In this document: positions 26,001-29,000 of the stretch, one piece after another
How the letters are laid out: the number at the start of each line of letters is the position of its first letter
How positions within the stretch are numbered: position 1 is the stretch's first letter
Origin: Patagioenas fasciata
Lineage: Eukaryota; Chordata; Aves; Columbiformes; Columbidae
Length of the DNA: 64,000 bases
Direction: 5' to 3'
NCBI RefSeq assembly: GCF_037038585.1
Contig: NC_092520.1
Location: forward strand, 64,417,501-64,481,500
Position numbers and translations under genes: made by a program
Notes under the pieces: generated by a model
What the model was told of the DNA's origin: nothing
The model's database searches: none
Seen by the model: the letters and a program-made list of their open reading frames with translations, nothing else

Positions 26001-29000
26001 TAACTCTCAGCTAATTCCTTCGCTATGGATGTCAGTCAGTTATCTACAGGGTTTGATACAGTCTTTATAGAAAGAGAAAATGGCAGAAGCCTCTTTACTT
26101 TTCCTCCATGGATAGTCGGTAAAGATTCTCGCCCAGGTACTCGAGCCTCTCCCGTTGTTCCAGGTCCTGGTACAAGCCTTTGGGGACCTTGCTTAGGCCG
26201 TAAACCAAGCCGTACAGGCAGCCAGCAATAGACCCAGTAGCTGCGCTTTCTCCTGCAAGTTTAAGCACAATTGCAATGGTCTCTTAGAGTCACCTGCACA
26301 TACATAAACCAAAAACCACTCTGCACAGATGAGGAAATATTACACTGCTGATGGAGTGTGGTGGGGGAATGTTGGGTCAGTCCCAAATCTTGCACCACCC
26401 CATGCCCTGCCTCTGGAGGTGCCAGGTGAGGATGGCTAGGGAGGAAGGTGACGTCAAGGCAAGGATGCAGTGACACCTCTCCAGCATGTGCTCCTGGGCT
26501 AGAAACTTATTTGGTTTGGGGAAAATCCACTCCAACACTCCAACACAACAGCTGTTGCAAGCAGCTAGCCATGTAGCCCTGCTACATGGCAAATGTCCTG
26601 GATTGGAGTGTGTACCTTCCTCACAGCACAGCATGGCGTGGCACATGCTTTAAATCACCTAGCCACAGTGAGTAGCATCGGTGCTCTGTGCAGCGATTGT
26701 GGGTTTGTGACTGTCACAGTCTGCAGCAAAGGCTTGTGACCTGGCTCGATTTCACTATGTGCACTTGGAAGGTTGCACTGCCAAAAGCACGGGCATTTTG
26801 ACGGGGGAAGATCCCAGCCCTTTACTAAGTCATACTGAATTTTCTTTTCATGCACCTCTCAAAGCTGTGAGACTTACATGGAGCAACATTTGAAAAGCAG
26901 CATGAATGGCTTGTGTGCCGGTTGCTGCCACAGGAAGGGAGTTCAGGGGTAAAACCAGGGGTGCAGACATAAGGGGCAGCATGGCAGATTGGCCAACTGA
27001 GGGAGCTACCAAGCGGGAGGGCTCTCTTAGGGGTGGGAGGCACAGGGATCCCTCACCTCCGTGGAACATGGAGCGGTTGCAAAGCTCCGTCCAGTCCCCG
27101 CCGCAGCCCAGCAAGGCGTCGTAGGCAATCATGGGGGCGTCATGACCTCGTCTTCCCCCCCGGCCTTCCGAGCTCCACCTCCTGTACGTCTGTGGGAGAG
27201 AGGGTGATGTCAGGGCAGGGCACTGGAATTTGGGACATGGGGACCACGGCTGCACCAGGGTGGCTTACCCCCTGCTAGCTGGGAATGGTTCACCTCGCAG
27301 GTAAAGGGCTGCAGCACTGCCTGCACCACTGCCTGCACCATTGCCCACACCATTGCCCACACCATTGCCTGCACTGCTGCCTGCGGCATGGGATGAGCTA
27401 CCCCAGCCTAGGTGATGCTTGAGGTGCAGGGATAAGCCCACACCTCAGCTTAACGCATCACATACTTGGCAGGCCAAGAACGTGGCTTAATTTAAGCAAG
27501 CCAAGAATGCCAAAAAAGCAGATCAAGGTAGATTCCAAGTTGACACTCCATAAATTCTTTACTATTTAAAATATCTGTCTTGGTAAGGACTTACTTTTCA
27601 GTCCTCTTCCTGCCTCTGGGAAATATTCTCAACCCTCTTTGTCATATATTTGCGAATGTTTCAATTAGCCAAGTGTTACATGTGAGGTGAAGAAGTTCTG
27701 ATTCAGTAATTTCTGTAGGGTCTCAATTTCAGACAATGTTAATTCAAGCCCCCCTCTCTGATTTTTCTTGCCAAACCCTTTCTCTCCTCTTCCACAAGCA
27801 TTTATTGAACAAGAGGGAAAATAATTTGCAAATGTAAGAAACATCTCTTCCCCAGGAGAAGAAAGAAGAAAAAGCTCCAAAGTCCATGGCTAGATTTGCA
27901 AAGGAAAACTGGATTTTCTCTAGAGGAGGTACCTCCAGAACTCATGTTTCCCCACCCAAAATCCCCAAACAAACTGAACACTGATAAATTTATAGTAAAA
28001 AAATACTTTCTTTTAAAGGAAACAGGCAGCTTTATTTCCTGCAGTTTGAGTTACATTGAATTGCTGCTGCGTGGCTGGCTCTTGGATTCTGCAACATATA
28101 TAAAGGGTTTGCATTTCTGCCTATTCACTTTCATGTCAGCCATTGCCTTACTTGGTTTTAGTTTATCTGCATATACATCAAACAAGGCAGAGTTGGACTA
28201 TAGCTTCACTCTGCTGCTTTATTTTTTTTTCCAATCTAGAGAGTGTATTTGTGTCCTTCTGCTATCCTTGGACACATGCAAGCTTTCCAGCCTTATTGCT
28301 GCATTTTGGATGCTGTGGAGCAGTACTGACACATGTGTAGTACTACGAAAGGCAAGAGGACTAAACGCAGAGGTGCTATTCTGGGTACGCAGGCAGGCGG
28401 CTCAAGTGTCACTTCATTTAGCCCTTAAGATCACTGGTGCTGTGCACACATCTGATGTCATCTCGCCTTGATGAAACCACTTTACACTAGGGATTGCTGT
28501 CCTTGGGACCGAGCCTGGGAGGACTTAACTGCACCAAGGCAGCATCTCTCGAAGTTTTCAAAAGCACAGCCTCCTTTCGACTCCTCTGCCTTGGTGCAGC
28601 CCTGTGATGTGGCACCAGCCCAGCTGCCCTGGGGTGCAAGGGTGGCGAGGACAGGGAGCACGGACAGGAGTGACAACATGCACTCCCTTCTGCTGAAGGC
28701 ACTGAGCTGCTGCCAAGCCCTGGAGGTAATTCACATGTCTTCTCCTTGCTGTAAACCACTGCAGTCAGTAGTTACAGCTGCCTTTGACGTCCTCACCCTC
28801 CAGGAGCTGACCTGCTGCTGGTTAGCACTCCCTTTCTGTCCATTTTTTTCTCCTTTCTGGGTCCTTTCACAGTGCTGGTTTAAGCAACTCCATCTTAAGG
28901 GGGTGAGATCCTTAGAGCCAAATTGGCCTGGATGACTTTGATTTGGTTCCTCTCTCATTTTGACACACACCGTGTCCAGCATGGGAAAGCGAGCAGGGGG

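Follow-up and report, generated by a model that had tools for sequence, protein, structure and literature searches.

How does one gene come to end either as a small pseudoenzyme or as a protein several times its size? ADPRHL1 raises this question on the minus strand of a 64,000-nucleotide stretch of the Patagioenas fasciata genome (the whole stretch analysed, hereafter the window), where the last codons of a seven-exon gene run into a donor-like motif and a very long open frame lies downstream.

The seven-exon core is a complete ARH domain

Seven coding exons of ADPRHL1, placed by ARH family matches, by tblastn with an ADPRH-like paralogue and by GT/AG borders, were rebuilt on the minus strand with GT..AG borders throughout and encode exactly 354 residues, with donor phases of 1, 1, 1, 1, 0, 1 and 2 from exon 1 to exon 7 (a slash marks the exon-intron border):

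46436..46649, minus strand: coding exon 1 (from the ATG), donor CAG/GTAGGT, phase 1
42433..42597, minus strand: exon 2, donor AGG/GTACGG, phase 1
36043..36168, minus strand: exon 3, donor CAG/GTAACG, phase 1
33283..33423, minus strand: exon 4, donor CAG/GTAACG, phase 1
30741..30868, minus strand: exon 5, donor AAG/GTAACT, phase 0
27057..27189, minus strand: exon 6, donor GAG/GTGAGG, phase 1
26099..26252, minus strand: exon 7, ending in phase 2 with the bases AA left over
20007..26098, minus strand: intron 7, 6,092 nt

The PF03747 domain of the ADP-ribosylglycohydrolase family covers this short form (E 2.5e-59; residues 6-327 against profile positions 1-286 of 287), and the match to ARH1 in PDB 3hfw, which we take to be the human protein, reaches E 5e-97, with ARH1 residues 1-351 of 357 aligned and residue 353 of ADPRHL1 paired with ARH1 residue 351 at the alignment end. 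PDB 6g28, named as a human structure in PMC9738213, matches equally well. Compared with 3hfw, the SDDT and DSDS motifs of ARH1, also named in PMC9738213, read SDNT and ESAA in ADPRHL1; three of their four aspartates are changed, a loss of metal-binding residues of the catalytic site that matches the published count, 'three of the four'. Domain and aspartate loss both fit the ARH2/ADPRHL1 branch of the family.

The relatives end where the short form does. In ADPRH (ARH1), the enzyme paralogue, the domain is the same end to end as in the ADPRHL1 short form; the ADPRH-like gene of this genome closes with ...DLYRIT at the equivalent place, and another ARH-like gene, ending ...LHALAWGRH, also stops where this region closes. 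Because ARH1 aligns end to end and two ARH-like genes stop at the same place, these alignments make the short form the whole of the ancestral domain, with exon 8 as an added tail. In both of these ARH-like genes, the two compared in this respect, the stop lacks a consensus-like donor; a GT does overlap the TAG of the ADPRH-like gene, but as GTTGAG.

Beyond ADPRHL1 and the ADPRH-like gene, two more ARH-like loci were seen, in C30 (7317140-7320346, 1339-1791) and in C32; the former retains the motif GGDNDSTG, and the latter lay outside the donor-at-stop comparison. In C1 (85437679-85440912), a long simple T/C-rich repeat that starts at base 1 of this piece and reads FFLS over and over is continuous, within a single open frame, with an ADPRH-like exon.

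The stop codon lies inside a weak donor

On the minus strand, exon 7 closes with GAG GAA AAG TAA AG, the boundary falling between A26099 and G26098:

26095..26097, minus strand: TAA stop of the 354-residue form, inside the donor AAA/GTAAAG
26093..26098, minus strand: weak intron 7 donor GTAAAG, by sequence, weight matrix and U1 pairing

The original prediction placed the stop (26097-26095) within a donor-like AA/GTAAAG, and the sequence is as described. It also called this a good donor, a description that did not survive scoring: AAA/GTAAAG lacks the consensus G at both -1 and +5. By a generic donor weight matrix, the site scores 4.87, the lowest of the seven donors in the gene (5.85-10.28 for the other six); of the 3,348 GT sites on the minus strand of the window, 288, this one included, score at least as high. 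Its pairing with the 5' end of U1, computed as a ViennaRNA duplex, is again the weakest of the seven (-1.8 kcal/mol, with the other six at -5.2 to -11.3), and 1,348 of the 3,348 sites, again counting the site itself, pair as well or better. It is still the top GT by matrix from the start of exon 7 to position 25700. Pairing at -1.8 kcal/mol is so poor that any use of this donor stays questionable.

Does the overlap of stop and donor call for an explanation of its own? In phase 2 the first G of the intron is the third base of a codon, the next codon is a stop whenever the intron opens with GTAA, GTAG or GTGA, and an unspliced phase-2 GTRA donor would read G/TRA, hence a stop inside the donor. 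Six of the seven ADPRHL1 donors would give a stop as their next codon if they stood in phase 2, and the same weight matrix puts the expected share of such donors at about 74%. With six of the seven behaving alike, no special explanation is needed: the overlap is little more than chance, a generic by-product of phase 2 and GTRA, and we ruled it out as a sign of design. That it is instead a selected regulatory device, in which, for instance, stop recognition or U1 occupancy is read out through the same bases, strikes us as scarcely credible; stop and donor do overlap exactly, and the two ARH-like paralogues examined have no consensus-like donor at their stops, but phase 2 plus GTRA yields such an overlap free. 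No statement of the overlap was found in the available parts of the published ADPRHL1 accounts, PMC7390403 and PMC8427608 included.

Exon 8 offers an open frame of 1,590 codons

15233..20006, minus strand: exon 8, with one leftover base, 1,590 codons and a stop
20007..20031, minus strand: exon 8 acceptor, with 13 of 16 pyrimidines in its tract, ending TTGTGCAG

The first base of exon 8, C20006, directly follows ...TTTTCTCTTGTGCAG, and with the AA left over from exon 7 it makes AAC, which gives Asn354 as originally predicted; the 1,590-codon frame proposed there also proved open, through to a TAA ending at 15233. Joining 26099 to 20006 is predicted to give an open product of 1,944 residues (5.5 times 354), and exon 7 is the sole donor of the seven whose phase fits exon 8. 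With codons taken as independent, 1,590 open codons would arise at this base composition with a probability of about 3e-42; stops number 146 and 71 in the two remaining frames, and the open frame begins only 10 codons ahead of the acceptor. Downstream (14000-15232), the only candidate poly(A) signals were ATTAAA at 15051 and 14993.

The encoded tail is lysine/serine-rich and predicted to be disordered; cut into 11 blocks of 150 residues, the final one shorter, it has a negative fold index in every block. Searches of Pfam (E up to 10) and of PDB sequences (E up to 0.1) returned no match to it, and AlphaFold, given the first 260 residues as a single sequence, produced a poor model (mean pLDDT 51.6, pTM 0.16). 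Searched against this genome, a 256-residue N-terminal piece matched only itself, apart from one stop-ridden match at E 0.41 that was disregarded. By eye, a loose motif of the type F-x-K-Y-Q...S-S...K...E-K-Q-Q appears several times in the C-terminal third of the exon (15233-17000, minus strand); self-BLASTP of the tail at E up to 1 returned the trivial match alone and left this motif unscored.

The long form is an annotated ending of a known gene

Chicken ADPRHL1 has been described with eight exons, 'two variable spliceosomes' and a product of 1,934 residues, compared with 1,944 here (Li et al. 2021, PMC8427608), and alignments of vertebrate genes include transcripts predicted to carry a further 3' exon, exon 8 (Smith et al. 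2020, PMC7390403). Frog, mouse and chicken share with the present gene a seven-exon core (40 kDa) followed by one long 3' exon 8. The long form is already known, at least as annotation, and the predicted junction corresponds to a type of ending already annotated for this gene. What stands of the proposal that one choice separates a small pseudoenzyme from a protein five times larger is its two-form anatomy, supported by the fit of frame, phase and acceptor together with the printed chicken and vertebrate exon 8 forms; its strong donor and its novelty do not. Nor are two forms the whole output of the gene, since ADPRHL1 species of 23 and 25 kDa, their make-up unknown, have been reported in frog and mouse (PMC7390403).

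Other accounts touch on the gene from further off. In human heart failure, RNA sequencing places ADPRHL1 among the top shifts in isoform usage, with the forms unspecified in the figure legend (PMC9641957), and breast muscle of day-1 chicks has high ADPRHL1 protein, its form unstated (PMC4980056). A heart promoter (PMC2923625) and medaka knockouts (PMC12044080) have been described. Within the available text, no mention of exon 8 was found in PMC4990356 and none of isoforms in PMC10601310, and PMC13066029 has little bearing on the endings.

Published chicken primers probably report the short form

The chicken study also lists RT primers for ADPRHL1, with a product of 260 bp (Table 1 of Li et al. 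2021, PMC8427608), and finds expression higher in myocardium and leg muscle. On the present sequence, the counterpart of the forward primer spans the joint of exons 6 and 7 (27057-27066/26243-26252, 19 of 20 bases identical); an initial placement at the end of exon 7, which would have contradicted the stop, was dropped. The counterpart of the reverse primer lies in the first 100 bases of intron 7:

26003..26025, minus strand: counterpart of the chicken reverse RT primer, 19 of 23 bases identical

The pair predicts 260 bp here when intron 6 has been removed and splicing has not used the donor of exon 7, and with exon 8 spliced on a good site for the reverse primer is absent (best 14 of 23, ungapped). 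Because 260 bp is predicted only if the donor is unused, the published chicken expression and qPCR data most likely report the short form, the primers having been mapped on the sequence of another bird. By the same mapping, the short form is probably transcribed in chicken muscle and heart. Partly processed pre-mRNA, with intron 6 lost and intron 7 kept, would also give 260 bp.

A proposed contest between splicing and polyadenylation

We conclude that ADPRHL1 is very probably an ordinary two-ended gene, yielding 354 or 1,944 residues, with a contest between U1 and the poly(A) machinery as the inferred switch. Where U1 binds the weak donor of exon 7 soon enough, the 6.1-kb intron 7 would be removed, and exon 8 would append its tail of 1,590 residues past residue 354. 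Where the donor goes unused, RNA polymerase would enter intron 7, cleavage and polyadenylation would follow a few hundred bases on, and translation would halt at the stop inside the donor. The short transcript would be spared premature-stop decay, because its stop would lie in the last exon. The short form probably requires cleavage and polyadenylation within intron 7, so that the choice would not be one of splicing alone; both the use of a poly(A) signal there and its competition with U1 are read from the arrangement of the sites. A candidate signal is at hand:

25835..25840, minus strand: AATAAA at +258 in intron 7, by position only a candidate poly(A) signal for the short form

The next AATAAA begins at 25589 (+509, likewise by position only), and six more AATAAA or ATTAAA follow in the intron to +5240, such hexamers being common by chance.

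This arrangement resembles the class of composite terminal exons, which are associated with a large intron and a weak 5' splice site and sit in shorter introns than skipped terminal exons do (PMC3708835). With known members such as the IgM heavy chain and CstF-77, ADPRHL1 shares a weak 5' splice site and an alternative C terminus (PMC3708835, PMC5928244), as well as a stop and poly(A) signal in a large intron, although here the signals are candidates by position only. The 5' splice site of exon 7 is the weakest of seven, and the 6,092-nt intron behind it holds AATAAA; weak donor, 6.1-kb intron and AATAAA at +258 would together fit the profile of a composite terminal exon. The short mRNA of CstF-77 has no apparent protein product (PMC5928244), whereas the short form of ADPRHL1 is a full ancestral domain.

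Exon 8 might instead be reached through another donor, either cryptic within exon 7 or belonging to a small exon in intron 7, or it might be a separate single-exon gene starting at an ATG (KMLVDP). The weakness of the proposed donor speaks for another one, as does the presence in exon 7 of six GTs, four of them in phase 2 (26233, 26215, 26173 and 26140), the one at 26215 with a matrix score of 2.81. These four score only 2.81, 0.46, -0.98 and -1.68 against 4.87 for the proposed donor, however, and using them would cost 14 to 45 residues of the ARH1-aligned stretch. The exon 8 frame opens only 10 codons ahead of an acceptor whose pyrimidine tract is good, as that of a spliced exon would, and the chicken gene has the same exon count, with a length within 10 residues. 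We hold these other routes to be quite improbable.

It could also be argued that the long form, though annotated, hardly matters to the biology of this bird, the donor being near dead and the short form the working product. U1 pairing weaker than at any other donor of the gene favours such a view, and so does the frog, where exon 8 expression is low in the forming heart and RT-PCR of heart found no variants of altered exon composition (PMC7390403). The same scant cardiac signal of exon-8 probes in frog embryos, together with a ~100 kDa species in tadpole gut, makes it doubtful that the heart, where the original prediction would have sought the junction, is the tissue of the long form, and annotation support for the mouse exon-8 transcript is low (PMC7390403). 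Against negligibility, an open frame of 1,590 codons would need selection to persist, given its chance of about 3e-42. In translation, the first exon 8 probe region is stated to be conserved between frog and mammals, the second being divergent (PMC7390403, S1 legend), and a protein is reported in tadpole gut (PMC7390403), of only ~100 kDa where 1,944 residues are predicted here. A negligible long form is in our estimation rather unlikely, and we retain the two-ended gene as the preferred reading.

Other features of the window

Intron 7 also contains a 153-codon open stretch on the minus strand (23681-24139), which we take to resemble a CR1-type retroposon frame near its 3' end; it had no Pfam match, and a shorter similar piece lies on the plus strand at 4004-4333. 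Rfam gave no match at gathering score in the whole window, and a search for tandem repeats in 15000-47000 returned eight rows, none relevant to the ADPRHL1 endings.

Implications

The primer mapping is a caution that the qPCR of ADPRHL1 published for chicken probably covers the short form only. We consider it unlikely that the near-dead donor is a tuned, tissue-dependent switch, at which levels of U1 or splicing factors set the ratio of the two forms and shift it in development and heart disease; if that were true, the outcomes would be a free pseudoenzyme on the one hand and a giant, disordered muscle protein headed by the pseudoenzyme on the other. Should some muscle turn out to make the long form in abundance, work on ADPRHL1 that tracks the 40-kDa product would miss most of the protein by mass.
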